Shown here: positions 3,641 to 47,914 of the stretch, in pieces
Numbering within the stretch: position 1 is the stretch's first letter
Layout of the letters: every line of letters begins with the position of its first letter
NCBI GenBank assembly: GCA_963971425.1
Contig: OZ020514.1
Span: forward strand, 18,945,406 to 19,009,405
DNA from: Bryoerythrophyllum caledonicum
Lineage: Eukaryota > Streptophyta > Bryopsida > Pottiales > Pottiaceae
Direction: 5' to 3'
Length of the DNA stretch: 64,000 nt
Program-made: the position numbers and the translations under genes
The notes under the pieces: generated by a model
What the model saw: only the letters and a program-made list of their open reading frames with translations
Databases searched by the model: none
What the model was told of the DNA's origin: nothing

Positions 3641-3661
3641 TTATCCTCGAGTCGAGGATAA
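3641..3661. repeat. Element 1 palindrome, copy 1
   Basis: Reads TATCCTCGAGTCGAGGATA with an extra T/A pair outside. The 9-bp arms are perfect around one central G. It lies in the leader of the element 1 gene. Confidence 0.9.
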
Positions 3662-3770
3662 ACTCCCTTAATGATTGTGCGCAAAATTATATAGTGTGAC
3701 ATCACTAAACCGTAACAGAGAGAATGAAGAGGTCAGGATAAGAGTTATCCAACCATACAAGAGTCGTAGC

Positions 3771-3791
3771 TTATCCTCGAGTCGAGGATAA
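3771..3791. repeat. Element 1 palindrome, copy 2
   Basis: Identical to copy 1 (centre G), 130 bp further on. Its flanks are unrelated to those of copy 1, so the repeated unit is only the palindrome. Confidence 0.9.
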
Positions 3792-4047
3792 ACCGTTTGT
3801 TTTTCAATTTTGCTGCCTTAAAAGTCCTAAAAATACCACCTAACAAGTCCAACATCCCAAATTACCCGCAAGTCAAGTATACTTTACGTAATTCAAAACT
3901 TCCTAATCAGTAGAGCTGACAATCATATACCGTTAATCATAGTCATGGTATCATTCTACCTCATCAATTTTAATCCTACAGATATCGATATCTGATATTT
4001 TCTTTTGCTAGTTACAGTCTTAAATCCGTCAGCAACGAAAGGAAATC

Positions 4048-4066
4048 TATCCTCGACTCGAGGATA
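4048..4066. repeat. Element 1 palindrome, copy 3 (centre C)
   Basis: TATCCTCGACTCGAGGATA. The central base is C, so this is the opposite orientation of copies 1 and 2. It lies in the leader. Confidence 0.9.
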
Positions 4067-4113
4067 AAAAACTCAACCACGGTCAATCACAGCGAAGATT
4101 AGAAGAGACCAGT

Positions 4114-4132
4114 TATCCTCGACTCGAGGATA
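4114..4132. repeat. Element 1 palindrome, copy 4 (centre C)
   Basis: TATCCTCGACTCGAGGATA, perfect arms, 48 bp upstream of the first ATG of the gene. Confidence 0.9.
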
Positions 4133-4179
4133 CGTGTAAAAGTATTGCACTAATCAGTGCAAAATTGTGACATCTGCAG

Positions 4180-5556
4180 ATGGCATCTTCACTTCAGCCA
4201 GAAGAGGATACCTACAATTATTCTGGATCCGAGATATTCATCCAAAGATTTTAGAATCCTCTGGCACCATCCCCGTTCATTGACGATGTCGTTGAGAACT
4301 ATGGGACTCTATGGGTGTTCCAGAATAATGTAAAGAGCTGGTCGTTCTCGAAGTTTGGGAAGTCTGTTCACATAACCATCAAGGTGAACGATGAAATCCC
4401 TTATGTCCCACTCAACAGAAAAGAGAGAGTTATGTTTGTTGAGCAGCAGGGACAAGACTTCATAGTTCTTGGAATTCAGGCGTTTGATGGAGCTGGAGTG
4501 GATCTTCCACATTGCCACTCCATTGTTGTGAAAGTTGGGCCCACTCTAGGTCAATTCGACTTCTCCGAATTGCTTGAAAGTGTCGCGCGAAACGGACAGG
4601 GGTCACTAAGGGAGGCATTCGAAAAGTATGAGCCCTGGACGAACGTGGATGCTGAAAAAGTAAACAGACGATTAGCACGGATTCACCAACTTCTGTCAAC
4701 ATTTGAGGCTCGACCAATTCCAGTCGAAGCGAGTGCACGTCGTCTAGCACGAGGAAAAACAACTGCCCAGGGAAATCCGTTAGGTTCAACCGCACCCCGT
4801 ACCTCAAGTCGTGCTCCTCCCAGGCGGCCTTCAACTGCGCCTACGACGCCCGGGGAATCTTCAAACAAGAAGCGGAAGTCCACAGTCGGCGGTAGCTCTT
4901 CATCCACAATGACGAGGTCCACGACCCCAAAGAAAGCCAGAAATGACCCACAGGTGGACTTTCAGAAGATCATGGAATCACAACGACTATTCTGGGAGGA
5001 ATGCAGAGGCAGCTTTCCATTAGAGTCATCGTATTCAATGCGAATTCAGCAGTGTGTTGTCGCGAAGGCACAGTTCGTGATTAGGGGGATGGAGGAAGCC
5101 ATTGTGTTGAGCACGATGGATTTCCTCGTGCAGCTTGGCGACGTCAACCAACGTCAGAAGATCTGCATCTATCCAATCGATGAGCATGGTGAGCCGATTC
5201 AGGCTGTGCCCATCTCATGGGATGCCATCAAAGATGGCAAGTTCATGCTCATTAACGGACAACATAGCGTTGAGGCATCCAAGAGACTGCAAGACAATGC
5301 AAATTGCAGAGTATCTCGAAAGAGAGACCTACAGCGATGGGATGCGTATGTGGTCTGGTCAAGAGATCCTCTAAAGTTGCAGAGAATCTCAAAGTTCTAC
5401 AATGACACCAACTACCTCGACCATGCGCAACCAACCTGGGGTAATCAGATCGCAAGTTGCCGTCGAATTTGGCTTAACTCCGGACGTCCAAGTTACCAAC
5501 AAGAAGAGGGGTCAACTCGGATGAATGGCGCTGTCTTTGACACTGAGAAGTACCTG
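4180..5556 (+). CDS. Element 1 gene, exon 1: novel N-terminal domain plus ParB/GQH-like domain
   Basis: The frame opens at ATG 4180 directly after a ctgcag acceptor and runs 459 codons to a GTAAGT donor at 5557, phase 0. One in-frame TAG at 4252 interrupts it (the downstream ATG-less frame reopens by 4315). Residues about 45-150 form a compact domain I do not recognise. Residues about 180-260 are a basic Ser/Thr/Pro linker with KKRK. The C-terminal part holds INGQHSVEASKRL followed by YVVWSRDPLKLQRIS. A G-Q-H motif before an alpha helix is typical of the ParB/sulfiredoxin and DGQHR (DndB-like) folds. Element 2 has the matching IIGGQHTYLACKAL and LWSRDPENLVKIS at 40,2xx, so the domain is conserved between two diverged copies. 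The ParB-fold assignment rests on this short motif. DNA binding or nucleotide binding is possible but unproven. Confidence 0.65.
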
Positions 5557-5701
5557 GTAAGTGGTCCGCCTCAGGTTTATCCTTGAGTCGAGGATACTGG
5601 TTTTCAACGCGATGATTGAAAAATGTTAAGATTCAATTTTTTAGAGTTGTGTGATTCTTCGGTCTAAATATGACCTGACAAAACATGTTTTTTGATTGCA
5701 G
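5557..5701 (+). other. Intron 1 of the element 1 gene
   Basis: Donor GTAAGT at 5557 and acceptor ttgcag ending at 5701, with both flanking exons in phase 0. It carries one palindrome copy near the donor. Confidence 0.75.
5578..5596. repeat. Element 1 palindrome, copy 5 (one mismatch)
   Basis: TATCCTTGAGTCGAGGATA. One C-to-T change in the left arm is the change expected from deamination of a methylated CpG. It lies in intron 1. Confidence 0.85.
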
Positions 5702-7024
5702 TTGTTTTCCAAGCTCATTGTCAACCGCTTCCAGAATATAGATCCCACAAAAGAAGGGAAGCAGGCTAGCAAGTCATCAGACCTCACAAATGAGATCAAG
5801 GTTATCTCACTTCCTGATGACATCTTCAAATTGTGGGAGGATTTCCTTGACATGCACAGCAGGGGTGAGATTATCAACCCTGACACCATGGCTCCATACA
5901 ACGAAGCCAAGGGAAGCAGAGTTTCACCGATCCATCGCGAATTCTTCAAGAGGTTGGGTCACCTAACCGATAACGACTTGAGAGATTTGTTCACCTACCT
6001 GGTAGACAGCAATCGAGCGTACGGGTACCCAAAAGTCACTCTACGAAGAACGGCAGTGGTTCATGGCTCTTGCTTCCATTACGAGGAGTGGGTTGATTGC
6101 CGGAAGAAGAAGCGCATAGACATGCAGGAGTTGATCGCAATTGACCCGTCGTTGAAGTTTTTACTTTCAGACGGATTCGTTGACGAAGTTGTGTGGAAGT
6201 CGTGGAAGGCAAATCATCGCTTGTCTTCTGCAACTTACAACATGCTCCTTTGTCGTCCTGACAAGGAGTTCTTCTCCATGCGGTTGACGAATGCGAGGAA
6301 GTTGAAGCGGGCTTCCCACTTGGTGGAGAAGTTCTCCAATGTTTTCTCGTTCTTCAGGAAGTTTCTCTTTGTTAAGAGCCAATTCTCTCACCATGATGGT
6401 CCATCCAAGCTTCGGGACTTTGATGGTGAAGAAATGAATTTCGGTGAGTATTTCGAGCCACCGCCGGAGGACAGACCGTGGCCTCTTGGACTGCTTGACC
6501 TTCGTCAGGTCCCTGGGTGGTCATCCAAGGACGACTCTGCAGAGGAGCCATACTTTTCCGCATTTCTAAAGACACTGTTGTCCCAGAAGAAGGTCCCGAC
6601 TCTAAACACTCCTACCGTTTGGGTTTGGATCACCTCTTCTAAGGACAGAGCAATGCATGCTCTAAAGTATGCAGAGAAATGGATGAAGAAGTACATCCCA
6701 ATTTCTGCGGCGTACATGCCATCAGCGTACGAGCGACTGAACCTCGGGACATCAAGGTCTAAGTGTTCTGAGCTTTACTTGCTCTTCCTCATTTGACGTG
6801 ACCATCCAGATGTCAGTTCTCTTGTTGAGAAAGTGATGCCAAGCTACTCTGCCGTGGATACATCTTATTACACGGATAAAAATAAGTACTTGGAGGCATG
6901 CTACGCCGTTCACGGGTCTGAATTGCCGATGGAGTTCTACCTCGATCTCATTTCGCAATTCTGCAATTACGGAGAGCGTGTATTCGGTGTATATTGTAGC
7001 TCAAAGTTTGTGTTGGCTAGCAAG
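5702..7024 (+). pseudogene. Element 1 gene, exon 2: methyltransferase-like region with one in-frame TGA
   Basis: 441 codons in phase 0 between a ttgcag acceptor and an AAG/GTAATT donor. A single TGA at 6794 breaks it and the same frame then continues to the donor, with no frameshift. The first 280 residues are unrecognised and rich in aromatic and basic residues. Near the C-terminus VWVWITSS is followed by ELYLLFLI and then by ELPMEFYLDLI and GERVFGVY. This spacing resembles the end of N6/N4 DNA methyltransferases (a short strand, then a P-x5-LI helix, then the glycine-rich cofactor loop), and the corresponding region of element 2 keeps a clearer FNTWDGGNMTALAL. ParB-methylase fusions are known in phages and plasmids, which supports the reading. 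No catalytic D/N-PP-Y/W motif is visible, so activity is doubtful. Confidence 0.5.
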
Positions 7025-7054
7025 GTAATTGAGTCTCTCTTCATTATTTCAGTT

Positions 7055-7073
7055 TATCCTCGGGTCGAGGATA
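7055..7073. repeat. Element 1 palindrome, copy 6
   Basis: TATCCTCGGGTCGAGGATA, changed only next to the centre. Intron 2, 30 bp after the donor. Confidence 0.88.
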
Positions 7074-7190
7074 ACTTTATCTGACTCTGTTTTGTGGATG
7101 CATGATGTATCTTACGTCCTTACTATATCTTGTAATTGACGTTGCTTATTCTATGACAAATTTGCAAAAGTACTTAGCAATCCTGTTCAT

Positions 7191-7209
7191 TATCCTCGGG
7201 TCGAAGATA
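7191..7209. repeat. Element 1 palindrome, copy 7
   Basis: TATCCTCGGGTCGAAGATA, one mismatch in the right arm. It shares the CGGGTCG core with copy 6 in the same intron, which suggests local duplication. Confidence 0.8.
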
Positions 7210-8490
7210 TACTCATAATCATTGACACCGTTTAAATTCGTTTGTCTCATTTACCTCATTCACAAATTTGTTTTTTGTATGTTGCAGATGTTTGGAACCT
7301 CGTTCTAGGGTGTCATTGACAAAGACTACCGATTGTCATACAAGTTCAAGTCCAAAATGATATGTAAGTATGACATGAATGATTTCATTCATAGGGATTG
7401 TGTGTACTATGGGTCGATGCCTTCTGTGACCGGAGTTCCGCAATCCGTAGAACCTCGCGACACCTCAATCCGCAGGAACTCCAGGACCGCAGCACTCTGG
7501 AGTAGTTCAGACTTACGGACCACGCAGACAGTAGCACGAACTACCTCGGCCTCTCAGACTGCTCCAGTTCGTTCTCGTAGTCGCAGAACCGGAGATCAAC
7601 TTGGTACTGCCCCCACTCCCCAATTGGATGCAAAAACGGCTCAGCCCCAGCAGGATGAGACCATGGAGTCCCCTCCACCACGGCCTACCCCCCATTCACC
7701 AACCCGAGCAAATTAGTGTGTCCCGGAGGACCAACTGGATTTTAATCCATATGGTACGAATGAGGGTGTGGATCTTTCGATCCTTCGCGGTGATGACGCA
7801 GGTCCATCTCGTCCTGCACTCATGGATAGTAATGAATCATCTCGATCACTCTCTCCTGGTGCTAGAGATGTGGATATGCAAAGATGTGATGAAGTCGAGC
7901 CCTCCCGTATTCCTAGTATGCCTCGTGACTATGTTGGGGTTGTCTCTCGAACGGCTCTAGAGACTCTTGGGGGTCCAGCTCCCATTGTGCCAGATGATTC
8001 CATCATTCTGCTGTCGGACTCAAGTGACGACGAAGGTGGAAGAGACCCCATTCCAGCCAGTTGGATGTCAAATCCAGATCATAACGATCTTTTGGTAGAA
8101 ATGGGGTTGGATGACGCTTCTGGATCGGGCGATCCGTTCTTCTTCAACACAGCCGGAGAAGCCCCTGCCCCTAGAGAGCCTGTAATGTATGAACCTGGAG
8201 GTGACTACTTCAGGCATATTCTCAACAAGCGCCTTCGAGAGCAGAAGGAGAAGCAGGACATTTTGGACCAGTTGGAAGCGTCCAAGCAAAGGCAGGTGGA
8301 GATGGTGGCTGCTCTGGAGAAGCACAGAGAAGAGTCAGCTCTAGAGAAGGACCGAATGGCGGCTGAACTTCGAGCTGAGCTTCAAGCTCAAATGAAAACG
8401 GAGTTGGCTTTAATGTTTTCCCAAACCGTTCAACTCAGTCAATCAACCTCATCAGGTCCAACGTTGTCCACAATTCCTCAGACCTCGATT

Positions 8491-8509
8491 TATCCTCGCA
8501 TCGAGGATA
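8491..8509. repeat. Element 1 palindrome, copy 8 (in coding frame)
   Basis: TATCCTCGCATCGAGGATA, inside the exon 3 linker and translated without a stop. Confidence 0.85.
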
Positions 8510-8688
8510 GTTTTGCCTTTGCTCTTTGTCCTGCAGTCCCTTCGTCGTCTGCTTTACTGCGGTGCTCGTCTTCTATTCCGACTTCGGTCCCTTCCCTCGC
8601 AGATCTTTACCATCCTACCTCGTCCGGCCATCAAGATGTACTTGTTGCTTTGGTGGATCCCTCTTTGTCGGCAAGAGGATCAGTGGAG

Positions 8689-8707
8689 TATCCTCGATCC
8701 GAGGATA
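8689..8707. repeat. Element 1 palindrome, copy 9 (in coding frame)
   Basis: TATCCTCGATCCGAGGATA, in the same frame as copy 8, encoding YPRSED. Confidence 0.85.
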
Positions 8708-8964
8708 GAAGTCCCAGTCGCGTACTCCATATTCCGGCGGTTTTAGCAGGAGCTGAACATGGGGCTCCTTCAGCTCCAGGGTCGTCGCCACAGCCATCAC
8801 CTGCTCGCGTCCAACGATCTAAGGAGTGCGTCGGAGAGCCCTATAGGGTAGATGTGCCTTCGGAACAAGATGACATCCTCATCGCGGATGAAGATCGAGT
8901 GGACTACGAACCATCTCCAGAAGGTCCTGGGCTGAACGCGGCAGAGGAAAAGAAGGTTGGCTAG

Positions 8965-9233
8965 CCTTTTCAAAATTGTTAATCGATTTTCATGATGTTA
9001 TCTAGCCCTGTCTTTTTCTAATGACTGCTTTCAGTGCATAGTAGGTCTTATCTCTCTTTGTAGTGGCTTGCAGGTGTCAAAAACGGATTGGAAATGTTTT
9101 CCAGCAGTCGCATTGTGGAGTGGAAATCATGCAATCTCTGACAATTCCGTCTCATGTTGCTCAATCTGCATTTCATCAAGTAAATTCATATGTTTCCTTT
9201 TATTGACTCTTTTTTGTGTTGGTCATGTACCAG
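8965..9233 (+). other. Probable intron 3 of element 1
   Basis: T-rich sequence ending in a gtaccag acceptor at 9233. An internal stretch at 9074-9179 is open and flanked by tgcag and a GTAAAT donor. It might be a small exon, but its length (106 nt) would break the phase, so I leave it as undecided. No palindrome copy is present here. Confidence 0.4.
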
Positions 9234-10031
9234 GATCGTCCTTCTAGGAGTGTGTCTATTGCCCAGAATATTCGGCCCCGAAAGTGGCTGAATATTGTTC
9301 TGGATTTGAATGGTATCTTGTGCGAGGCAGCATTTGCACCTGCCTCGTTGAGGTCCTCCAGGAGTCGGGTGGAGTTTTCGCCCACCATCCCTGCATACAT
9401 AGGTCCTAAAGCTGTATATACTCGCCCTGGTGTCCGTGAGTTTCTGGCGACCATCAGAGATCTCTCAAAATTTGTTGTCATCTGGAGCTCAATGATGAAG
9501 TCCACCGTTGAAGAGATCGCAAATTACCTCTTTTGTGATCTGTCTCCTCCAGATCTCATTCTTGGTCAAGAGAGTTGTGGGAAGATTGAGACGTCGCAGA
9601 ATACATTTTTGATGTCTCAATATAATTCGAAGAAGTTGATCATTTTAAAAACGTTGTCTTCTTTGTTGTATAATCGTCGAGATGACTTCGGTATCATGAA
9701 CTCCGACAACACTCTACTTTTGGACGATAGCCCGAAAAAGAGCGTCTGTAATCCTTCTGACAATGCCATTTCCCTTCATACATGGCGGCGCGGAGCTAAG
9801 TATGATAAGTTTTTGATTCAAGAACTCCTGCCTTGGCTCCGACGTTTGACATCTGAATGCCGCGTCGGGCAGTTGAAGGATTACGTGAATAGCAAACGTA
9901 TAGGCAATCGTCCATTGAGTCCTAATAGTCCTTCAAAGAAGTATATCACGAATGGAATGGCCCTCTCCTCTAAGAACCTTCGTGTGGAATTTGAGATTCC
10001 AGATGATGCGGCATCATCTGCTAGGTTGTAG
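9234..10031 (+). CDS. FCP1/SCP-like HAD-fold protein (element 1)
   Basis: An uninterrupted frame of 265 codons from the acceptor at 9233 to TAG 10029. It carries the order of motifs of FCP1/NLI-interacting phosphatases: VLDLNGIL (motif I), VYTRPGVREFL, VIWSSM (motif II), NTLLLDDSP (motif III) and DNAISLHTW (the usual N-A-I-x-I). In active enzymes motif I is DxDxT/V. Here the nucleophile Asp at codon 9303 is present but the second Asp is Asn at 9309, so phosphatase activity is doubtful. The C-terminal 60 residues are basic and unstructured. Homologous modules, more degenerate, occur four times in element 2 (43.4-47.4 kb). It may be the last domain of the preceding gene or a separate gene. A candidate poly(A) signal follows. 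Confidence 0.75.
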   Translation, partial: DRPSRSVSIAQNIRPRKWLNIVLDLNGILCEAAFAPASLRSSRSRVEFSPTIPAYIGPKAVYTRPGVREFLATIRDLSKFVVIWSSMMKSTVEEIANYLFCDLSPPDLILGQESCGKIETSQNTFLMSQYNSKKLIILKTLSSLLYNRRDDFGIMNSDNTLLLDDSPKKSVCNPSDNAISLHTWRRGAKYDKFLIQELLPWLRRLTSECRVGQLKDYVNSKRIGNRPLSPNSPSKKYITNGMALSSKNLRVEFEIPDDAASSARL

Positions 10032-10118
10032 CAATGTATATTTATGTACGTCAAGAGACACTCTATAATGACGAACAATACTCCATTGTGAAATTTGTGT
10101 ATATATTTTTCATCAGTG

Positions 10119-10124
10119 AATAAA
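10119..10124 (+). terminator. Candidate polyadenylation signal AATAAA
   Basis: AATAAA lies 88 bp after the stop of the HAD-like frame, followed by T-rich sequence. The position fits a plant near-upstream element. Confidence 0.45.
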
Positions 10125-10375
10125 TAGATGTCTTGTTTGTTTTTACTGTTCCTGTCTTGTCTTCTATTGGCATTTCACATGCTCTTCGTTTCAGTCATGG
10201 AGATGTTTATTCAGTGTTGGATCTAGCATACTTTTGAATGTGGTTTAGGGCTTCTTAGTTATTTTTGTGTCGAGCATATTATTGACTGTGGTTTCGGGCT
10301 TCCTAGATATGGTTGAGTCGAGGCTACTATATTTCGGTGGATCGAGTAGAGAAGTTATCGTTGGATCATGTATAT

Positions 10376-10394
10376 TATCCTCGGGTCGAGCATT
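10376..10394. repeat. Element 1 palindrome, copy 10 (decayed)
   Basis: TATCCTCGGGTCGAGCATT. The left arm is intact and the outer right arm has lost pairing. It lies just upstream of the acceptor for the last element 1 frame and is the rightmost copy in the element. Confidence 0.65.
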
Positions 10395-10468
10395 AGTTGG
10401 ATTGCTTTCTTCCTGAACGCAAATTTGTCATTCTTATTGCTTCTTTTGTCATGTCATTCTCATTGCAG

Positions 10469-11261
10469 GTTGTGTAGGCCAGCATTACTCCTACCCCATG
10501 CAAGAGTGGTTGTAGTGTTCTACCCTCCAACGTTGGCTTGTTCTCTGAGTACTCAGGGTCTCTTCATGGAGGTATTGCCATGTCCTATCAATCGAAGCCG
10601 TATCTTATGTGCACTGCAACTGATGTTGCCTCTGCTATCATGGACTTCTCTAAGCAAATGGTCGATGATGGTGCCGTGGATAGCCCTCCAGAGCGTAGGG
10701 CTGGCATAACTCCTGTGGCATCCCCTTCTCTTCTCAAGCGGATGTGCTCTTCTATAGAGCCTAAAGTAGATTGTGCTTCTCACCGGCAGCTGTATGTGGA
10801 TGAAGCTGTTGAAAGAAACCGGGTGAACGAAGTTGTGCATAATACTCCTGATCCTATTCTGTCTTCTTGTACGCCTCTTCAGCCTTCTTGCCCCCCTGTT
10901 AAGCAACGGCGGCTTGAGTGTACTCGATCTCAAGGTGCTTTTGGAGTTAGAAAACCTCCTACTCCTCCAAGCGAGTTGGAAACTCAATCATTGGGTACTA
11001 AGCCAAGATGTCCGAGTTCAACATCTGCACAATATTGTCGGAAGTCTATGTCGTCCCATGTAGGTGATGGTATTGGGCCCGATAGTTATCAGTGTCCGCC
11101 ATCACCTCTTTCGACGAAGGTGAAGTACATGGAAATTGATGATTGGTATAAACCTTACTCTCGGAGGAAAGAAATTATGATTGGATATGCAAAGGTGAAA
11201 GCACAAGACGCGTTGCTTTTGAAGGCACGTGGAGTTGGATCAAATTTGTCCAAGTCTTAGT
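10469..11261 (+). CDS. Element 1 terminal frame: uncharacterised Pro/Ser/Cys-rich protein
   Basis: Open from a cattgcag acceptor at 10468 to TAG at 11259, with one in-frame TAG at 10475 close to the acceptor. Codon use and G+C match the preceding exons rather than the surrounding AT-rich DNA. The product is about 255 residues, mostly low complexity, with PPERRAG and PPVKQRRLECTR segments and a basic C-terminus. I recognise no domain. It could be the last exon of the upstream gene or a small separate gene. Confidence 0.45.
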
Positions 11262-11680
11262 AATAGTTATAGTGTAATTTTGGATGTCTTATAGAAGTCG
11301 CTTGGATAATTCTCCCTTACTTATAGACACATTAGTATTATATTTGAATTCTATTATTAGGTAGTGGTTTATCCTTATTCTTTAGGTGAACAGTGACTTG
11401 AATTATATTTTGAGTGGTTTGGTTTTGTACTAGATCCAGTCCCTGAGAAATAACATATTTTTCCAATCAATGTACTTATCTTTTACAAGTATATGTGTGT
11501 AATGCTATTGTGGAGTGTTGGGTTGATCATGTTGTTGATATGATGGATTTGTGATGTTTTCACTTATGTTGTATGTTGTATGCTTGAGTTTACAGTAACT
11601 TTTCGTTTGTTTTTATTCCGAAATATTAGGGTATTTGTCTCAATTTTCACATTTTGTCTCATTTTAATGAATATGGTGTT
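11262..11680. other. T-rich flank between element 1 and retroelement A
   Basis: No gene is seen. The sequence is A/T-rich 3' flank with no palindrome copies. Retroelement A begins abruptly near 11,680. Confidence 0.5.
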
Positions 11681-36151: not shown

Positions 36152-36184
36152 TCACGTGCTAAGGAGGCGGCACTCATCTCGGCT

Positions 36185-37476: not shown

Positions 37477-37540
37477 GCTAACGTCAGTGATATAAAATCA
37501 CTAAAGACAATGGATAAGGAAATGGCAACAACAATGATTT

Positions 37541-37559
37541 CGTCGGCCGCCCGCCGACG
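37541..37559. repeat. Element 2 palindrome, copy 5
   Basis: CGTCGGCCGCCCGCCGACG, seven perfect outer pairs. Confidence 0.88.
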
Positions 37560-37660
37560 AGGGTGGCTCCGAAGTCTCAAAGCCGATGAACCTGATCAAC
37601 AACCACACGAATCCCTTAATTAACTTTAGAGTTGCTGGAAAATGGGTCTTGTAAACCATG

Positions 37661-37681
37661 CCGTCGGTTGCCTGCCGACGG
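37661..37681. repeat. Element 2 palindrome, copy 6
   Basis: CCGTCGG and CCGACGG arms around TTGCCTG; the inner part is diverged. Confidence 0.8.
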
Positions 37682-38802: not shown

Positions 38803-38821
38803 CATCGGCGGCCCGCCAATG
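38803..38821. repeat. Element 2 palindrome, copy 7
   Basis: CATCGGCGGCCCGCCAATG, one mismatched pair. Confidence 0.85.
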
Positions 38822-38958
38822 GATGTTGTGTTCAGTGTAGTTAAATTCACTGATGTAATTGAATTTTCGTTCAGATATGATCACAAGTGGATGTAGTAAG
38901 AATGAATATGTCATAGGGTCTTCAAAATGTTATTTTGTGATTCACAATTGACTGTGTC

Positions 38959-38977
38959 CGTCGGCGGCCCACTGACG
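38959..38977. repeat. Element 2 palindrome, copy 8
   Basis: CGTCGGCGGCCCACTGACG, outer arms intact. Confidence 0.8.
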
Positions 38978-39116
38978 AATGTTGATTTCAGTCTAGTATA
39001 AGCCTATCTTGTTTTAGGTCTATCGCACAGAGGTGACAAGCAGAGTCTGTAGTGCGGTTTCCCAAGTCATAGTGTCTTCAAACATCCTTCTATATGGTGT
39101 ACACTTGTCATTGTGG

Positions 39117-39137
39117 TCGTTGGCGGCCCGCCGATGA
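39117..39137. repeat. Element 2 palindrome, copy 9
   Basis: TCGTTGGCGGCCCGCCGATG core, 40 bp before the splice acceptor of the first plus-strand exon. Confidence 0.85.
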
Positions 39138-39178
39138 AGTCTTTGGCAGGTGGTCTGATCTTTCTTAATGTTGCGCAG

Positions 39179-40510
39179 GACTGTAATTCCAGATAAGTCG
39201 AAGTGGCTCGTCAACAGTGTTGTGGACCTTGAAGTGGACGTGGGCTGGCCGGATGACATCAAGCCACGAGTCACATGTGAGGTTCACCCACAGTTAACGT
39301 TGTGGGGCATCACATGGAGAAAGGAGGTGATTGCCGAGTTGGGTATCAACGGGAACTACAACTCAAAAACATTCGTAGGTGGGAGCCTTGTGTCCGTGCT
39401 TGACATGAAGGAGGACTCGGAGGACTCGTCGAAAGTGCGACTCCTAATTCAGGTGAAGGTCAAAATGGCTGACGAAAACCCGGACATCATCGCACTTCGA
39501 ATTCCTTGGATGACCTGCACTCAAGAGCTATGCATCACTACTTAGGAATGCGGGATGCAGTTCCTCGGCATGACTCCGAAAGACAGGACGGATTTGCTTA
39601 CCTAGTTTGGAGAAGCGAAGGACCTCAAGGACGCGAAGAACTCCAGGGTTGGGATCTTGACGGCCTCAAAGTCGAAGACGGTGAGGAAGCCCAGGAACTC
39701 TAGGAAAGCGGCAAGTGACGCTCTGATTGAAGTTGCTGGAACTCCGACACCGGAGAATCGAGTTTGCACGTGGTCAAGAAGAGGGCATCAAAGAAGGAGC
39801 CGAAGGTGAAGTCCGTCGTTGATGCGCTTTCATTTGCCAACCACCTGTCAGTCAAGACGAGTGGTTAGGAGCTGGACATCATGTACAAGGCATTAGAGGA
39901 TGGTCTTAGCACTTGTTATCCATTCGGGCAGAACACGCTCATAGTGAAGATTTCCTCCGCAAAAATTCATGTTGCTCCCGACTCGATGAAGTACAGATCC
40001 ATCATCGCAAAGCACACAGAACAACTCGTTCTATTCTACAGAGAATTGGGACCATGGCGGGCAAAGCCGCCTCTGTACTGTATTCCTCTGCGGGGTCCTC
40101 TGAGAACAAAAGAGAATGGGAGGGAGCTGCACGGGATTGAGCTTGTGCTGCCATGGATTCCAGCGTCCATGGACGCGGAGGGTGTGCTTGACGGAGTACA
40201 CTACAAGTGGTGGAATTCTCCAACATGCCACTGGTACATCATTGGTGGCCAACACACGTACTTGGCATGCAAAGCACTTGGCGAGTTGGAGCCCGTGGAT
40301 TCGGATAAGGCGAATTACTTCCTCGATCACGATATTATCCCATTGTGGTCGAGGGATCCGGAAAACCTCGTGAAGATCTCCAACCTCTTGAACATCAAAA
40401 TCAAGGACAAGAAAGTGGAAGAGACCTTTGTGTTGCAGCTCCGGAAGATGAGGGATAAGTGGATCGAGTATGGTCGGCTCGACAGCAGGACCAACTATAA
40501 GAAATGGAAG
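39179..40510 (+). pseudogene. Element 2 plus-strand gene, N-terminal domain and ParB/GQH-like domain
   Basis: It begins after a gttgcgcag acceptor at 39,178. An N-terminal domain (about 39,179-39,540) ends at TAG 39,543. The frame goes on through TAG 39,603 into a basic linker, shifts near 39,765, passes TAG 39,866 and enters a clean 210-codon stretch. That stretch has IIGGQHTYLACKALGEL and LWSRDPENLVKISNLLN, the same order and spacing as INGQH...WSRDP in element 1. It ends in phase 0 at TGGAAG before a GTAATG donor (40,511). The ParB-like reading is the same inference as for element 1, and the homology between the two is clear by eye. Confidence 0.6.
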
Positions 40511-40660
40511 GTAATGTGTCACTTCACTCAGCAATTTTGCTCTCGATTATTGACAATCTCATGAGCATGGTGGAATTAAATCATTGATTATGTTTCGTCG
40601 GCGGGCAGCCGACAACATTGTGATTGAGCTCATGTAAATGTCATCTATATCATTGTGTAG
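40511..40660 (+). other. Intron in element 2 plus-strand gene
   Basis: GTAATG donor, tgtgtag acceptor, both exons phase 0. It carries one palindrome. Equivalent in position to intron 1 of element 1. Confidence 0.75.
40596..40614. repeat. Element 2 palindrome, copy 10
   Basis: CGTCGGCGGGCAGCCGACA, centre region changed, inside the intron. Confidence 0.88.
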
Positions 40661-41968
40661 GAGTTCTGCAAGGAATACCTTGCAACACTGTAGGGGAAGG
40701 ACTCCAAGACGAATACGTTGAAGCTGCCGCTTGTCTTTGCACCAGACAATATTTACAACAAGTGGCAAGAAGTCTTCGACGCATGGGATCGATCCCATGC
40801 ATGTTTTTGCAACCTGATTGGTGAGGATGGAAAGAAGCCCCAAAACATCCTCAAAACTCCTCAACATGACCTCACCCTCCACGACCTTTAACACATTCTC
40901 GCCCTCTGGGACAAGGAATCCATGAAGTTTGCTCATGAAATCCTCACGAAGAAGGTATACTTGAAGGTAACCGAGGGGCGCGACAAGGATGCAGAAGGAG
41001 TTTCGCTCAAATCTTGGTGTCAGGATAAGAAGATGGAATACATCATGAAGAACGAGCTCATGCTGATGTATCAAAAGTATCCATTGAAGAAGGCTGGCGA
41101 TAACACCTACTCACCTCGGTCGGTTGAAGAGTACATGCAGTTGGCGGACGAGAAGGGCATCAGCAATGAAACCATTATGAACATCAGACGCAAGATGGAG
41201 CTTAGTGATCCGGGGAAGGCCTACCTCAAAGGGAGGTACAGCGGAATTACACCAAGTACCACCCTAGCTTCAGTGGAGTTCTATGCGGCGTTACAGAAGT
41301 ATGCCTTCAATTGCAACGATGTTGTTGATGAGTATAGTGTCCATCACGAAGTCCGGGTTGCGCAGGAGCTTGAGGACGTCGTGAGCCTGATCGACGAACC
41401 CGGACTCTTCAATCTTGAAAAGGCGGTGCCCGAGATGTTCATCGTGTTCGACTTCGATAAGTGCGGGATTCCGATCTACTACAACAAAGACGCGCTCAAG
41501 GCTGTTGCAAAGAGGGTGTTGCGGGGTGAGGGGGATGGCAGGGAACTCTACGCCCCTTCAATCTTCATCACAGACAACGAGTCCAATTTTATGATTGAGA
41601 CTGAATGTCATTTGAAGAAGCTGGATTGCGTAGTCCACACCATCCGCTACCTTCCAGACTCCAGTGGTAGATTCACTCCCTCTGCCATGGACGAGAGACC
41701 CATCGTGCATGTCAACATCGTCTTCAACCACCTTGGAGCTCCATGGGACCGCCTGCACTAGTTCCAAAAGGTAACTGGATTGACGAAGCCTCTCAGTCCA
41801 CTCTATGACGACGCTGCCTTGCCCTCGGCTAAGAGTTGGGTTGGAGATGAATGCCATCCAAGCTTAGGGTTGCTCTCATCAATTTTGCAACCCACATTCG
41901 TGAAGGGCAACTCAAGTCTGACCGTCTTCAACACTTGGGATGGAGGCAACATGACTGCATTGGCCTTG
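40661..41968 (+). pseudogene. Element 2 plus-strand gene, methyltransferase-like exon
   Basis: 436 codons, phase 0 at both ends, no frameshift, with in-frame TAG 40,691, TAA 40,889 and TAG 41,759. The N-terminal 230 residues are unrecognised. The middle has MFIVFDFDKCGIPIYY. The C-terminus reads DECHPSLGLLSSIL followed by FNTWDGGNMTALAL, which resembles the last helix and glycine-rich S-adenosylmethionine loop of N6/N4 DNA methyltransferases. It is the counterpart of exon 2 in element 1, after the same intron. Confidence 0.5.
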
Positions 41969-42073
41969 GTAAGTCACCTCTCCTTCCTCCATTCATTCCT
42001 TCTTTCCATCACCATCTTGTGTCTGTCGGCGGCCCGCCGATGAGACAATATTCATACTGATCATTGACCAAGA
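41969..42073 (+). other. Second intron of element 2 plus-strand gene
   Basis: GTAAGT donor after GCCTTG at 41,969. The acceptor is uncertain (near 42,072). One palindrome is inside. Confidence 0.55.
42025..42042. repeat. Element 2 palindrome, copy 11
   Basis: GTCGGCGGCCCGCCGATG, close to consensus, in the second intron. Confidence 0.88.
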
Positions 42074-43149
42074 CTATTTGCCCAACAACGACACAAAGCG
42101 ACGGTGATCAAATTTGTTTGTGAGGAGGCGGAGGTTGCTGTCGCGATGGAGCGAGTGCAAGCCATGTCCTTCCTACCGGGGAGAGCTCAACTGCTTGTGC
42201 TAACACTTCCAGCTGAGCCCGCTATGGAACCCAGTGAAGTGGTAAACTTGACTAAAATCGACCAGGACTCAGAGCATGGGACCGAGATTGGCGATGATGC
42301 GATGGACGACAGCCTTTTCCCCGACAACGTCCAGAACGATGGACTACTCACAACATCCGACTTAGGTGTTCGTCACGATGAAGCACACTTGATAAGGCCT
42401 CAGAAGGGAGGAAAGGCACCAGCTATGGTGCGACCAGAGGTGAAGCCGTGGCGCGATGACCGTCCCCCTACACCAAGCGGGATGATCGTCCCCCTGTACG
42501 CACAGCCTGCGGATGAAACCGTCGTGCGCTCACAAGGTGCCTTCGTCCCCCCCCGAGCTGTGACCTCCATCGACCCTGGAGTCGGCAGCTCGCCGACGCC
42601 GCCTGCACCAAGCCCAGCTGTATCTGGTGGGCCTGCACCACGTGAGAATCCTTCGAGTTCTTCACAGCCAAGCGCATCCGCTACTCCATAATCCGGCAAA
42701 GTTCTATATCATGCACTGGTGACAGAAGTGGTGAGCAAGAAGAAGAAACCGAATGTGAGGATTATTCCTCCAAACCGGACTACTTACGTTGCGGCTTCCA
42801 AAATCAGTGGAGGCCAGACTCCCTAGAGTTCCGCCCCCAAGGAGACAGCGCAAAAGAAGCAACGGAGTCATTTACAAAAGAGCAAGGCACCATCGGAAGA
42901 AGGTGGCGTTTCATCGGGAGTGCCGTCACCGAAGAGCACTTCGAAGAATAGCAAGGAGGGGCGGTCTCCGAAGCAGTCGCCTCTGCCTCCGAAAAAGGGA
43001 TTGAGGAAGTCAAAGAGGGGGGATAGCGATGGTTCCACCCCAAGAGAACTCTCAAAGTCCCCTCACTCTGCTGATCATCCCAGCACGGGGCTTTCACCTA
43101 CTGCTCCTCCTGTGAGGCAAAATATAGGCAATAGATTCGGAGGTTAGTC
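42074..43149 (+). pseudogene. Element 2 plus-strand gene, basic Ser/Pro/Lys linker exon
   Basis: One frame over about 358 codons with TAA 42,689 and TAG 42,824 as the only breaks before the terminal TAG at 43,145. It starts with an alpha-helical piece (KFVCEEAEVAVAMERVQAM) that may finish the methyltransferase fold. It then becomes Pro/Ser/Lys-rich with KKKKPN and KSTSKNSKEGRSPKQ, probable nuclear-localisation-type basic clusters. It corresponds in place and composition to the linker exon of element 1, though without the SIM-like motif. Confidence 0.45.
42581..42597. repeat. Element 2 palindrome, copy 12 (in coding frame)
   Basis: GTCGGCAGCTCGCCGAC, translated within the linker. Confidence 0.8.
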
Positions 43150-43304
43150 ACGAGATAGTGCACCTAGGAGATTTTTCTTGCAGTTTAGCACACTACCTTT
43201 ATAATAAATGTACTTTATCACGTGAACACAAAGCTCATTTTCCATGGTTGTTTTTTTGAGTTCGCAGTCTATTATTAGAATGTGTTTTCATGTTCCACTT
43301 CTCT

Positions 43305-43322
43305 ATCGGCTGCCCGCCGACT
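43305..43322. repeat. Element 2 palindrome, copy 13
   Basis: ATCGGCTGCCCGCCGACT, in the interval before FCP1-like module a. Confidence 0.8.
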
Positions 43323-43455
43323 GTATATCTAATAGCTTCTATATTTTTATCAATCAACAGTTCATCCGGGTATTCCTCTTCCTGCTCTTTCAACTCCAAC
43401 AATTGACAAAGATGGAGCGGATCGGGAACCGGAGGCATTTGAGCACGACATTCAG

Positions 43456-44250
43456 GTGGGCAGACAACCACTCAATAACTATTTCCTTGTCCTCCAAGTA
43501 GACGGTGTGTTACTCGCCCTGGATATTGACAAGAACGGGTCGTTGTATAGCAAGATCCGGCCACGCATGGTTGAGTTTCTTAACTACTGCGTTACGAACT
43601 TCAGTATTGTGATCTGGAGTTCGGAGAATCCAGATAGGCATGCCCATGAAATGAAAATCCTTAGAGATGCATGTCCCAACATTAGAATGCTTGGTTATAT
43701 TTTTGATCAGTCGTACTACGACGTGGCAAGGTTTGGTGTTTGGGGTTAAAAACTCTACCTGAAGAGGCTGTCTACGCTTTTTTTGAGTCCCTCGGCGCTA
43801 AAAGGAATTGAAGCAAATAGCGGCAACACCCTGTTGATTGACGTTTCTCCTTTTACAAACGTCAAGATTAGTCCATATAATGCCATCTATTCGGTTCCCT
43901 TCACCATGGATTCTATTGAGACCGAAACCAATGAGTCCTCTGTTCTCTTCAAGGTCTCAAAGTTCCTTGAAGCCATGAAAGAGTCAGGCATGCTTGTACC
44001 CTTGTATACCGCGGTTGTAGATTGCCTTTCCTTGGTGAAAGAATCGGCTGTGCCTTTCAAAAGTCCAAGAAAGGCAGCTATTTGCTTGGTAGAAAAAGAC
44101 AAAACTTCCACAGCTAGGGCCGTCGTCCCTGGGATCCGTCGTCTCTTACCAGGTGACCCTAAATGGGAGCAGTACATATGGTCGTACCCAAGCAATAGTC
44201 GTCCACATCTTAGTACTACATGGAACTTGCCGTGGGCGAGCAGCCGACGC
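43456..44250 (+). pseudogene. FCP1-like module a
   Basis: A degenerate FCP1/HAD domain: VLQVDGVLL (motif I, nucleophile Asp replaced by Gln), RPRMVEFLNYC, VIWSSENPD (motif II), NTLLIDVSP (motif III), PYNAIYSVPFT. A single TAA at 43,747 interrupts it and the frame resumes at once, aligned with module b. Probably reached from an acceptor at cattcag near 43,455. Catalytically dead by motif I even without the stop. Confidence 0.65.
44231..44249. repeat. Element 2 palindrome, copy 14 (decayed)
   Basis: CGTGGGCGAGCAGCCGACG, at the end of module a. Confidence 0.65.
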
Positions 44251-44296
44251 TTGCAAAACCCATGTTGTACTTCATGTCTGTATAAATCTACAAAAA

Positions 44297-44302
44297 TAAA
44301 GA
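44297..44302 (+). terminator. Possible polyadenylation signal after module a
   Basis: An AATAAA word in aaaaataaagac about 45 bp after the module. It would make module a the end of a transcript, but splicing into module b is equally possible. Confidence 0.3.
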
Positions 44303-44416
44303 CTGTCTCCAACTTTCTGTGGTTCATATTTCAAATTTATGTCGTCATAACAATCACAGTGTCCGGTGCTTATGTTTGATACTTATTATATCTATGTCAT
44401 TGACTTTTGCCTCCAG

Positions 44417-45136
44417 GTGCCCCACATTGTCGTTGGGTCTCAAGCGGTGGGAGAATCCATCCAAAAGCATCCTGAGGTGCCAACTGTGAAGGTCAATCAC
44501 TACTTCCTTGTCCTTGGTGTAAACGGTTTGTTGATCGCACAAAATATAGGCAAGGACGGATTGTGGCATACCAAATTCAGGCCGAAGTTGGCTGAGTTTA
44601 TCAACTTCTGCGTGGATAACTTCACAGTTGTGCTTTGGAGTAGCGAAAGTCAGCCTAAGCTCGCTGCCCAATTGGTAGCCCTCAGAGGCCACTGCCCGGT
44701 TCTTAAAGTAGTCAAACACGTATACGATAATTTCTACTCTGATGTAGCTAAGAAACTCGTAGGAACTCGGAATGTATACCTCATGAGACTGTCTACATTG
44801 TTTTTGAAGCGAAAGGCAATGTTAGGATCTGGCGCGAATAGTCAAAACACCCTTTTGCTTGACGACTGTCCTTACAGGAATGTGAGGAATAGTCCTCTGA
44901 ATGCAATGCATCCAATGACATTCACCCTAGAGTCAATGGAGTCGGACAAAAACGCCGTTCTTCCCGGGGTTGTTAAGTACCTTTCCGCTTTGTTAGAGTC
45001 AAGCATGCCTGTACCCGAATATATTCGGAGGAATCCTAGCTCTGGATGCCCCGAACTCTCCCCCGGTGACCCACAGTGGGAGGACTTTGTTCTGGCGTAC
45101 CCGAGCAGTAGGCGTCCTCCTCGTACGGTTGCATAG
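44417..45136 (+). CDS. FCP1-like module b
   Basis: The only intact module of the array: 239 codons and a stop, opening after a cctccag acceptor in frame. Motifs: VLGVNGLLI (nucleophile Asp replaced by Gly, second Asp by Asn), RPKLAEFINFC, VLWSSESQ, NTLLLDDCP (motif III intact), LNAMHPMTFT. It ends YPSSRRPPRTVA. Family knowledge says the first Asp of motif I forms the phospho-enzyme, so this is a pseudo-phosphatase fold. The fold may serve binding. Confidence 0.7.
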   Translation: MPHIVVGSQAVGESIQKHPEVPTVKVNHYFLVLGVNGLLIAQNIGKDGLWHTKFRPKLAEFINFCVDNFTVVLWSSESQPKLAAQLVALRGHCPVLKVVKHVYDNFYSDVAKKLVGTRNVYLMRLSTLFLKRKAMLGSGANSQNTLLLDDCPYRNVRNSPLNAMHPMTFTLESMESDKNAVLPGVVKYLSALLESSMPVPEYIRRNPSSGCPELSPGDPQWEDFVLAYPSSRRPPRTVA

Positions 45137-45142
45137 TAGTTC

Positions 45143-45165
45143 GGCGTCGGCGGGCAATCGACGCC
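45143..45165. repeat. Element 2 palindrome, copy 15
   Basis: GGCGTCG and CGACGCC outer arms, seven perfect pairs; the inner part is diverged. It directly follows module b. Confidence 0.8.
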
Positions 45166-45309
45166 AAAATCGTCCAATTTTTCCAGGCTTTGACATTCAT
45201 GTCTGTAACATCAGTTTTCTATGGAACAAAATCCCTCACAATAATTATCGTCTCCCTTGCACATGGCTCATCACCTATTGTATGCATTTGAATCGACTTT
45301 TCCCTTCAA

Positions 45310-46458
45310 GTGGACTGTCTTGACAACGAGATGGAGGAGCTGGTTACGATTGCTGAGAACCTGGTCATTATATATCTGGATGACAACACAGCGGAGAGAC
45401 TGAGTCCTCACCCAATCGACAGCTCGCAGTCGACGGCTTCCGTTCCCGAAAATCGTCCTACCGACCACTTTGGTATGGAAGATGACGATCGAGACTTTGC
45501 ACCATCACCGATGGAGGAGGTGGGGCCCAAACATGTCTACCGTGTTCTTGTTGAATCCGTCGCGGACCACAGTATCAATCGAGAAGACGACAACCAAGCC
45601 TTCGCCTCTGACAAAGCTTGGCCTTGGGCGGTCGGAGTAGTCGGCGGGCCGCCGACCGCTACATCTATCACATACCCGGCTGCCAGCGTGAGCTCCGAAG
45701 TTGTTCCAAGGAACATTCAGGTGGGTCCTTCAAGATACTACCTCGTCCTAGAAGTTAGAGGGCTTCTAATGGCTGAACGATATGGTTCTCCGGGAAAAGA
45801 TAAGAAGCCCCATTTTCATCAAAAACCTAGGCCGGGTCTTCTTGAGTTCCTGACGTTTTGCCAATCCAACTTCGGATTGGCATTCTCGTTCACCAAGAAA
45901 TATCAATCCATGAACAGACACATGGGTTACTTGCGCGAGGTGTACCCTGACCTACATTAGGACATCCGAGAAATGACCAACGGGTTTTGTGATATATCTG
46001 CCTGGAAGAATCCCAAAACAATGAAGTGCAACATGCTGCTGAAGTGGCTTGCTTGCCTTTTTTGAGATAGACGCTATCTTATTGGGCCAGACGCTAATGA
46101 ACGGAACACACTTCTGATCGATCATTACCCCCTCCGTAATATCCTCAATGATCCTTTTAATGCAGTGCATCCTTCAATATTCACATTCTCTATCCCGGAA
46201 CACACACCGCCTGGTGGACAAACGTATCTTCAGAGTATGATGATTCCCTGGCTTCAGGGACTATTGGAGTCCAGATTCAGCATCCAGGATTACTGCAAGC
46301 TCACCCAAAACTCCGATTTGGATGAGCATCGTATTTTCCCGAGAACAACGGTCCACAACAGATATCGAGAAGTCCTCCCTTCTCACCAAGAGGGCTACAA
46401 CAAGCTATGTTGTCTAGATGAAGTAATGGCCAAGTTGACAGTTACTCTCCCACCTTAG
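45310..46458 (+). pseudogene. Linker and FCP1-like module c
   Basis: One frame with TAG 45,958 and TGA 46,063 inside. An acidic linker with an in-frame palindrome is followed, after a possible acceptor at 45,720 (acattcag), by VLEVRGLLM (motif I fully lost), RPGLLEFLTFC, LAFSFTKK, NTLLIDHYP and PFNAVHPSIFTF. The order is the same as in modules a and b, so it is a diverged tandem copy. Confidence 0.6.
45640..45656. repeat. Element 2 palindrome, copy 16 (consensus, in coding frame)
   Basis: GTCGGCGGGCCGCCGAC, perfect, centre G, encoding VGGPPT. Confidence 0.92.
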
Positions 46459-46678
46459 AGAGCCATCTATTCTCCAAGGGACTCACGGACAGGCACCCAC
46501 TTTAATTCACTGGACTCTCGCCCATCGTAAACAGTGGTAAATGTTATAGACGGTTCCATGTAATTACTTTTATATATTCATCTCAAATTTTGGTGAACTA
46601 TTTTTCTCTATTTTATATTCCTCGCATATCTTATTTGAGTGGTTTGTTTCTTATCCATCTACTTGTTGGAATTTTCTC

Positions 46679-46697
46679 CGTCGGCGGCCCGCCAACG
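46679..46697. repeat. Element 2 palindrome, copy 17
   Basis: CGTCGGCGGCCCGCCAACG, between modules c and d. Confidence 0.88.
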
Positions 46698-46780
46698 TGT
46701 TTAACTTCTCACTTCCACCCGTAGTTTGCATCATGACAATGTTTCTTTAACATTTTCCACGGAACATCCTTCCATTTCAG

Positions 46781-47434
46781 ATGCCTGCACGCTCCTCCAT
46801 CACCGATTCAAAATGTATTATAGTATGCGTCAATAGTCTTCTTTGCTATGTGGACCCTTGCAAGCCGATATCTTTTGATTTCCCTCTTGGGAATGTTGTC
46901 CGGAGGCCGGGCCTAAAGAAACTATTCGAAATGTTACTTCCCCGCTTCAACATCGGGTTGTGGTCAACGATGCCTCTAAACAAGTTAAAGCCGCTCTTGT
47001 TGCACATTCCTCCGGATGGAGTCTTTCAATGTTTGTCGTTTGTTTAAAGCAGAAGTGACTTAGCTGATAGTTCCAAGTTTCCTTGGAGCTACAAGATGCC
47101 GTCCACTCTCTATAAGAAGAAGCAATCTAGACAAGTTCGCAAGCCCCACCAAGTACTGTTTGTCGACGTTGACCTCAAATCACTCCGACATACCCCCGAC
47201 TCGATTTGCTATATCCCCTGGCCGTTCCGAGGTCATTTGACCGCTCCAACCGAAGACGGAGTAATCCCGAATGTAGTGACAGACATCATTTCGCTCATCT
47301 ACCCCCTCCTTAGATTTTCATCCGTCCCTGAATATATGTCGCAAGTTGAACGCCCGAGTCAGGCGCACTGGATGGTTACGCAAGCGCGCAAGTATGGGCG
47401 AGCCGTAGTCAGATGGTCGGAAGTTGAATGGTAG
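46781..47434 (+). pseudogene. FCP1-like module d (most degenerate)
   Basis: A frame with one TAA at 47,045. Motif I is reduced to VCVNSLL. RRPGLKKLFEML and IGLWSTMP keep the following helix and motif II. Motif III is recognisable only as VLFVDVDLK. It ends WSEVEW before a stop. No phosphatase function is expected. Confidence 0.5.
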
Positions 47435-47444
47435 GTCTTTCTCC

Positions 47445-47462
47445 ATCGGCGGCCCGCCGACT
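47445..47462. repeat. Element 2 palindrome, copy 18
   Basis: ATCGGCGGCCCGCCGACT, 11 bp after the stop of module d. Confidence 0.88.
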
Positions 47463-47649
47463 GTCGTTCGTTGAGCACATTACCTTCGAACTTTTTGTTG
47501 TCATATTGACAATCCCTAGCGCTTTTTGTTCACATGTTCTTTTCATTGACACTGTTCTAGAACTTATCTTGTTGGGTAGCTTAGGAGGTTTTTTTCAGTA
47601 CGATTAGTTATTTGGAAAAGACGTTTACTTTACCAGGTCTATTTTGTTA

Positions 47650-47667
47650 ATCGGCGGGTAGCCGACA
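47650..47667. repeat. Element 2 palindrome, copy 19
   Basis: ATCGGCGGGTAGCCGACA, inner part changed. Confidence 0.8.
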
Positions 47668-47897
47668 TTGTACTTATCCTCTTATTAATTTATGTGTTCA
47701 TGTTCTCTGGCTGCATCATCGATGTGTTGCCACTGCCATTTGAACTTTTCGACGCCATTCTCAGAACCCATGTTCGACAATTCCTCTCGCATATCTTTTA
47801 TCTTCCGCGATTATTTTTGTTTATATTGACCTTGGATTTTATTGTTACCGTAGAAAAGGTTTAAGCAAATTGATGCAGTTTGTTGCTCTTGTCTTTG

Positions 47898-47914
47898 ATC
47901 GGCTCTGAGCCGAC
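47898..47914. repeat. Element 2 palindrome, copy 20
   Basis: ATCGGCTCTGAGCCGAC. Inner TC/GA replaces GG/CC on both sides, keeping the pairing. Last copy of the element. Confidence 0.85.

Follow-up and report, generated by a model that had tools for sequence, protein, structure and literature searches.

We analyzed a 64,000-nucleotide stretch of the Bryoerythrophyllum caledonicum genome (the window; positions 18,945,406-19,009,405 of contig OZ020514.1, here C1, or G000:C1:18945406-19009405) that contains two related transposons, element 1 and element 2, each strewn with a short palindrome of its own. On balance we favor the interpretation that a ParB-like protein encoded by each element binds that element's palindromes as a dimer and keeps the element transcribed or unsilenced, an arrangement that would resemble the VANC proteins of Arabidopsis VANDAL elements and would have originated independently. 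A preliminary description of this stretch had proposed such recognition of cognate palindromes by proteins sharing a GQH...WSRDP (GQH) domain. The proposal gains from the homology of the two GQH domains, from differing palindromes confined to their own elements, from palindrome conservation above that of the flanking sequence and from symmetric change specific to lineages; the assignment of the domain to the ParB family was matched in none of Pfam, PHROGs and NCBIfam.

Distribution of the two palindromes

Palindrome 1 is TATCCTCGASTCGAGGATA and palindrome 2 is GTCGGCKGSCMGCCGAC, with lengths of 17-19 bp. Allowing up to 3 mismatches, palindrome 1 occurred at 10 sites in the window, all of them in element 1, and palindrome 2 at 18 sites between 34307 and 47650, all of them in element 2, with one more at 33322 retrieved by a degenerate pattern (about 19 in total). 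Shuffled sequences yielded on average 0.01 and 0.06 matches, respectively. These figures agree with the ten and the roughly twenty sites described earlier, with none of the other kind in either element. When degenerate patterns were applied with up to 2 mismatches, the counts for palindromes 1 and 2 were 9 and 0 in element 1, 0 and 0 between the elements, 0 and 17 in element 2, and 0 and 0 after it. The notion that the palindromes might be equally common outside the elements was thus contradicted in the window, where none lay outside, and in the loci we read.

Palindrome 1 was also counted across the genome (437 Mb in 894 contigs, of which C1 makes up 65 Mb), whereas the count of palindrome 2 covered the window together with the loci that were read. 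With up to 2 mismatches, TATCCTCGASTCGAGGATA had 4,246 matches per strand, compared with 3 for an equally palindromic control in which the letters were reversed. A chance origin of the palindromes was ruled out by the shuffles and by this control.

To sample further elements, we retrieved 20 segments of 10 kb, each surrounding palindrome 1 sites on C1, and merged them into 12 element-1-type loci. The 11 loci other than L005+L006 matched that locus, as did the window, with L021 doing so through a single 786-base match at 69% identity. The 12 loci, which had been chosen by palindrome 1, held 157 palindrome 1 sites and 1 palindrome 2 site, and three element-2-type loci chosen by protein held 0 and 41. 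Two element-1-type loci that were likewise chosen by protein (L037 and L038) carried 7 and 10 palindrome 1 sites, and an element-2-type relative at 74% identity (L039) carried ten sites of its type, all at up to 4 mismatches. An element 2 relative with both ends, L026+L027, is inserted in element-1-type DNA; its flanks have 6 palindrome 1 and 0 palindrome 2 sites, and its interior has 0 and 22 (24 with a laxer center). The insertion point adjoins a degenerate palindrome 1 site. Among viral contigs we found 0 exact matches to palindrome 1 and could confirm no relative of the first exon of the element 1 ParB-like gene.

Conservation and change of the palindromes

We sought the first intron of this gene in nine copies and obtained it in eight, leaving out L007_L008, which is without exon 2. 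In 8 of 8 copies a palindrome (up to 4 mismatches) begins after 20-21 intron bases. The copies fall into three groups. In 20 of 20 pairs drawn from different groups, 16-19 of the 19 palindrome positions agree; identity over the rest of the intron is 43-50%, with 34-87 columns of gaps. The palindrome is conserved despite synonymous sites near saturation.

The reading frame of some relatives runs past the splice site and into this intron. We collected 36 metagenome homologues (14 through exon 1 and 22 through exon 2) and selected by hand 14 with such a frame; their tails were compared as back-translations, not as DNA. Seven of the 14 tails fit TATCSTCGASTCGASGATA at zero mismatches, a result that no more than one in 200 shuffled tails equaled. 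For two of the seven, P0007 and P0028, the fit requires a C-to-G change in the left arm together with the matching change in the right arm. One exon-1 relative, P0002, is filed under an uncultured Synechococcales cyanobacterium; it reads on into the intron palindrome and is therefore probably eukaryotic contamination of that record.

A paired shift was also seen among element-2 relatives. The 19 sites of L028 and L029, two loci selected through their protein, have T at position 7 in 18 cases and A at its partner, position 11, in all 19. In element 2 and L026+L027 the usual bases are G at position 7 (29 of 41 sites, against 8 with T) and C at position 11 (26 of 41, against 14 with A). Since T and A occur in the latter as well, the shift is a preference that differs between subfamilies. 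The two variant palindromes retain their symmetry; TATCGTCGA is a variant sequence.

Individual sites behave differently. The 198 palindrome 1 sites of the window and the 12 loci comprise 1,782 arm pairs. A change in one arm only was seen in 211 of these, matching changes in both arms in 4 and non-matching changes in both arms in 4. Within a family, single sites thus decay one arm at a time with no sign of compensation, and symmetric change is a difference between lineages. By eye, degenerate palindrome 2 sites (L040:3442 and some sites in element 2) resemble CpG decay, with C to T and G to A changes, which would suggest past CpG methylation.

The transposons and their genes

Both element types are giant DNA transposons, with terminal inverted repeats (TIRs; AACRCCATATTCATTAAAATGAGACA in element 1 and AACGGATATTTAACTAAATGTGG in the element 2 type) and a gene for a DUF7869 protein on the opposite strand from the ParB-like gene. 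The preliminary description had missed these features and had placed element 1 at 3.6-11.3 kb. It is in fact 19,451 bp long and extends leftward out of the window: its left 7.8 kb, including the DUF7869 gene, lies in the adjoining locus L025, where an inverted counterpart of the right end at L025:1230 defines the whole element as C1:18937635-18957085. This counterpart is also present in L016. The right TIR ends at window position 11680, and CATT flanks both sides. Five copies reach the right end, and all five halt at an identical ...TTTTAATGAATATGGTGTT with unrelated DNA beyond. Element 2 is 88% identical to L026+L027 across 15.1 kb; it retains its right end at 48205 and is missing about 560 bp at the left. 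L026+L027 ends in AACGGATATTTAACTAAATGTGG repeats with ACAT flanking each side. CATT and ACAT would represent 4-bp target duplications, each apparent in one copy per type, with a 2-bp reading possible for ACAT.

Both element types are high-copy in this genome. For exon 1 of element 1, a first look at 1,790 candidates led to at least 95 scored matches with identities of 67-100%, and for an element-2 exon 1,503 candidates led to at least 150, most at about 80-88% or 45-52% with some between; both counts are lower bounds. Contig C1 carries 37 of the 95 listed exon-1 matches (a hand count of the best matches only) though it has 15% of the bases, and it may be a transposon-rich or a sex chromosome.

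The elements share a layout in which the DUF7869 gene lies on one strand and a divergent gene encodes, in order, an N-terminal domain, the GQH domain, a methyltransferase-like region, a linker and one or more HAD modules (Table 1). A shared plus-strand gene set had been described before; its GQH...WSRDP frames and its HAD domains (Pfam NIF) stand, while the methyltransferase-like end is recognizable by short motifs only. Four of the palindromes in the window's element 1 precede the start of the ParB-like gene; introns 1 and 2 hold one and two, the linker exon holds two, and the last lies further down. Element 2 has five between the divergent genes and the others on both sides. A further palindrome 1 cluster sits beside the DUF7869 gene in L005, and part of it is a tandem duplication whose step is 605 bp (74% identity). 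The two clusters of element 1 are separated by about 6.5 kb with almost no long frames (L005 3590 to L006 ~130).

On the minus strand of L005, upstream, a frame of 554 amino acids matches Pfam DUF7869 (E 7e-45). The corresponding piece of the window copy, in L025, aligns to L005:1-1129 at 96.8% in a frame with stops. In element 2 the minus-strand match lies at 34726-35184 (E 6.9e-11; E 1.2e-17 in L026), and four other frames that were scanned had no DUF7869 match. We infer from its place and from the stretches HDKMD, LQLDN and GHTHEDID that the product is a transposase. No MULE transposase or VANC protein domain was met in the frames scanned by family models, which gave DUF7869 instead.

The GQH domain is encoded as GQHS...WSRDP in frame 4255-5586 of element 1 and as GQHT...WSRDP in frame 39869-40564 of element 2. 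The two regions gave an hhalign probability of 97.0% (E 1.2e-10) and, in a second comparison, 98.3% (E 2.5e-14), so that on profile evidence the domains are homologous. Among four divergent copies of exon 1, the proportion of nonsynonymous differences was 0.16-0.22 against 0.70-0.82 for synonymous ones; dN/dS (nonsynonymous to synonymous rates) was about 0.1 against L017_L018 and 0.18-0.48 for three close copies. Exon 1 is thus under purifying selection. Stops interrupt at least the copies in L015 and L019, and the window copy has one in frame at 4252.

Similarity to ParB and to methyltransferases is weak and confined to short motifs. With the ParB models of Pfam, PHROGs and NCBIfam, the only match was that of P0016 to a PHROG "ParB-like partition protein" (E 0.16), and neither hidden Markov model libraries nor PDB sequence searches gave a ParB or methyltransferase identity. 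When profiles were aligned by hhalign with seven phage ParB-methyltransferases, the best match fell on the ParB GHxR stretch (2 of 2) or on methyltransferase motif I (2 of 2), with scores of 20.9-30.3 compared with 11.8-20.0 for ten column-shuffled profiles, all of element 1. Motif-I-like YSGSK and WGGGN were seen by reading; a motif-I pattern was discarded as a test, being uninformative (5 of 15 element sequences and only 1 of 7 phage sequences matched). The catalytic motif IV, [DNS]PP[YFW], was present in 0 of 15 element sequences, some of them partial, and as DPPY in 7 of 7 phage proteins. Family models gave no match for 7309-7716 of element 1 and none convincing for 7717-8961.

The catalytic motif of FCP1/NIF HAD phosphatases is DxDx(T/V). 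Pfam NIF matched element 1 (E 7.7e-14), where the motif reads DLNGI, and the first two element-2 modules (E 6e-06 and 2.9e-07); it did not match the third element-2 frame (45292-45957), and the third and fourth modules of L027 fell below the cut-off. The first, nucleophilic Asp is replaced by Q, G, E, C or S in 11 of 11 element-2-type modules examined, from the window and relatives together. The HAD and methyltransferase-like parts are expected to serve as scaffolding rather than in catalysis.

Table 1. Coordinates of the features of elements 1 and 2 in the window
Feature	Position	Strand	Remarks
Element 1, right part	1..11680	+	19,451-bp DNA transposon; whole, G000:C1:18937635-18957085
Palindrome 1, upstream of ParB-like gene	3642..3660		Pattern search
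Palindrome 1, upstream of ParB-like gene	3772..3790		Pattern search
Palindrome 1, upstream of ParB-like gene	4048..4066		Pattern search
Palindrome 1, upstream of ParB-like gene	4114..4132		Pattern search
Exon 1, ParB-like gene	4180..5556	+	N-terminal domain, linker, GQHS...WSRDP domain; ATG at 4180 by reading
Intron 1	5557..5701	+	Palindrome 1 inside at 5578-5596
Exon 2	5702..7024	+	Helical region and first part of methyltransferase-like region; window copy stops at 6794
Palindrome 1, intron 2	7055..7073		Pattern search
Palindrome 1, intron 2	7191..7209		Pattern search
Rest of methyltransferase-like region (by reading), low-complexity linker, coiled coil	7288..8964	+	Broken frame; palindrome 1 at 8491, 8689
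FCP1-like HAD domain	9207..10031	+	Pfam NIF; motif DLNGIL
Palindrome 1, three mismatches	10376..10394		Pattern search
Frame 3' of HAD exon	10478..11260	+	Pfam scan: no known domain
Right TIR, element 1	11655..11680	-	AACACCATATTCATTAAAATGAGACA read inward; same end in L006, L014, L018, L020, then unrelated sequence
Element 2	33176..48205	+	Left-truncated copy; relative with both ends, L026+L027:2476-18059 (15,584 bp)
DUF7869 gene, putative transposase	33754..37497	-	In pieces; extent inferred from L026 frames, which are larger
Region between divergent genes	37542..39135		Palindrome 2 at 37542, 37663, 38804, 38960, 39119
ParB-like gene in pieces	39159..40564	+	N-terminal part and GQHT...WSRDP domain
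Palindrome 2, intron after GQH domain	40597..40613		Pattern search
Methyltransferase-like region	40662..41968	+	Ends at splice-like sites by reading; catalytic motif IV not found
Span with remaining palindrome 2 sites	42025..47666		42025, 42581, 43305, 44232, 45146, 45640, 46680, 47445, 47650
Up to four tandem FCP1-like HAD modules	43336..47434	+	First two above Pfam cut-off; last two below cut-off in L027
Right TIR, element 2	48184..48205	-	AACGGATATTTAACTAAATGTG read inward

Beyond the elements, frames at 18434-22597 and 11664-12551 on the minus strand look by eye like Gypsy-type gag and reverse transcriptase, and one of them adjoins the right end of element 1. Directly to the right of element 2, minus-strand frames at 48254-53039 resemble what we take to be a Helitron/PIF1-type helicase protein, and a minus-strand fragment at 58101-58469 (ITSGERGVGNTTATVN) looks similar to plant MinD.

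Candidate binding proteins and comparison with known systems

We propose that a dimer of the ParB-like protein would bind the 17-19 bp palindromes of its own element beside gene starts, in introns and further down, and that the methyltransferase-like and HAD parts, without catalytic residues, would provide a scaffold through which transcription of the element is maintained or its silencing averted. As the protein changed, its palindrome would change with it, so that each family would act on its own copies. A broader version, for which we see a little less than an even chance, is that this is a second, independently evolved form of self-recognition, in which a ParB-derived pseudo-methyltransferase, fused to pseudo-phosphatase modules, reads a lineage-specific palindromic code dispersed over its own element, with reader and code changing in step so that families in one genome do not cross-activate.

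Several observations weigh against binding by the ParB-like protein. Two decayed element-2 relatives with stops, L040 (67%) and L041 (66%), have one and two poor sites and no recognizable array. Among the 14 metagenome tails, three fit imperfectly (P0011 with one mismatch, and P0008 and P0014 with two, the latter deeper in the intron), and four (P0006, P0013, P0017 and P0018) show no palindrome fit. None of 81 scored genome matches to P0007 exceeded 43% identity (closest 39-43%), and its variant palindrome was consequently not found as DNA. The hhalign probabilities to the phage ParB-methyltransferases were only 0.6-7.8%, 2 of 5 shuffled exon-2 profiles and the HAD profile landed on the same phage motif-I stretch, and the methyltransferase-like region of element 1 does not match that of element 2 (1.1%). 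The methyltransferase-like label therefore rests on motif reading for both, and the phage profile match is a lead only. Finally, the DUF7869 gene is as closely linked to the palindromes as the ParB-like gene, and co-variation cannot tell which protein binds.

It is from this linkage that the first alternative arises, namely that the palindromes are binding sites of the putative DUF7869 transposase, for transposition or autoregulation, with another role for the ParB-like protein. A weak HTH_7-like match N-terminal to DUF7869 (E 0.021, below the cut-off) agrees with it, as do palindrome 2 sites that in L026+L027 lie as close as about 65 and 285 bp to the element ends, where transposase sites are expected. 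In element 1, however, 1.3 kb separate the right end from the nearest site, and the ParB-like gene has sites both ahead of it and within its introns; we consider this alternative unlikely. Still less probable in our view is that the ParB-like protein, bound to the palindromes, directs N6A/N4C methylation of the element, as proposed for Ectocarpus Sola1-1. The gene arrangement in the available part of PMC12477816 is similar and the motif-I-like stretches would accord with such an activity, but motif IV is lacking from all 15 element sequences, some of them partial, and present in all 7 phage proteins. That the palindromes are host transcription factor sites captured by the elements would suit the several that lie upstream of gene starts; with two related elements of the same genome carrying different palindromes, and neither found elsewhere in the window, we judge this highly improbable. 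Inert repeats spread within the elements, which the 605-bp tandem duplication in one array might suggest, have the scantest probability of all and were ruled out by the intron 1 palindrome, kept in place (16-19 of 19) while the flanking intron diverged (43-50%), with the symmetric changes between lineages also opposed to them.

Binding by the ParB-like protein invites comparison with several known systems. In bacterial ParB-parS, palindromes are likewise dispersed near the gene. Here the setting is a eukaryotic transposon, Pfam ParB_N was unmatched, and no ParA gene was met, none having been searched for. Phage ParB-methyltransferase fusions, such as the "putative DNA methylase" of phage WOVitA1 with ParB_N followed by N6_N4_Mtase, share the GHxR and motif-I stretches at which the best profile matches fell; they differ in their motif IV, and the scores are weak and the landing on motif I unspecific.

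The transposons are possibly Sola1-like. The TIRs seen here are a Sola1-type feature. An accessory gene does lie on the opposite strand, but its ParB/methyltransferase identity is only at the level of motifs. The target duplication of Sola1 elements is 4 bp. Sola2 elements have 4-bp target duplications according to the available part of PMC3627910. The 21.5-kb Sola1-1_Ec32 transposon of Ectocarpus, a precedent that the preliminary description did not name, encodes opposite its transposase a 1104-amino-acid protein with ParB-like and N4/N6-methyltransferase domains; as far as the accessible text of PMC12477816 goes, its authors propose that proteins of this kind bind to, and mark, the transposon that encodes them, and they point to cases in green and red algae. 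Among the top-ranked matches in the open-licence literature, PMC12477816 alone has this gene type, which is no proof of absence elsewhere. Sola1-1_Ec32 thus resembles the present elements as a giant DNA transposon with an accessory gene opposite the transposase, and differs from them in that they lack motif IV, carry HAD modules as well and resemble ParB only weakly. The Ectocarpus proposal names no target site in the accessible part of PMC12477816, where "palindrom" has 0 matches, whereas here there are candidate sites for two related families and two variants. Such sites make self-binding and the co-evolution of protein and target directly testable.

VANDAL elements are Mutator-like. The VANC21 motif YAGTATTAY is short and its arrays run in a single orientation; "palindrom" has 0 matches in the part of PMC5735166 available. 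The same part describes VANC21 motifs as located in introns and noncoding sequence, expanding through tandem repeats and varying from family to family. The moss-genome elements differ in that their motif is palindromic and binding is only predicted. They share with VANDAL an element-encoded protein, short motifs dispersed also in introns, tandem growth and divergence between families, and the ParB-like protein would work as VANC does with other parts.

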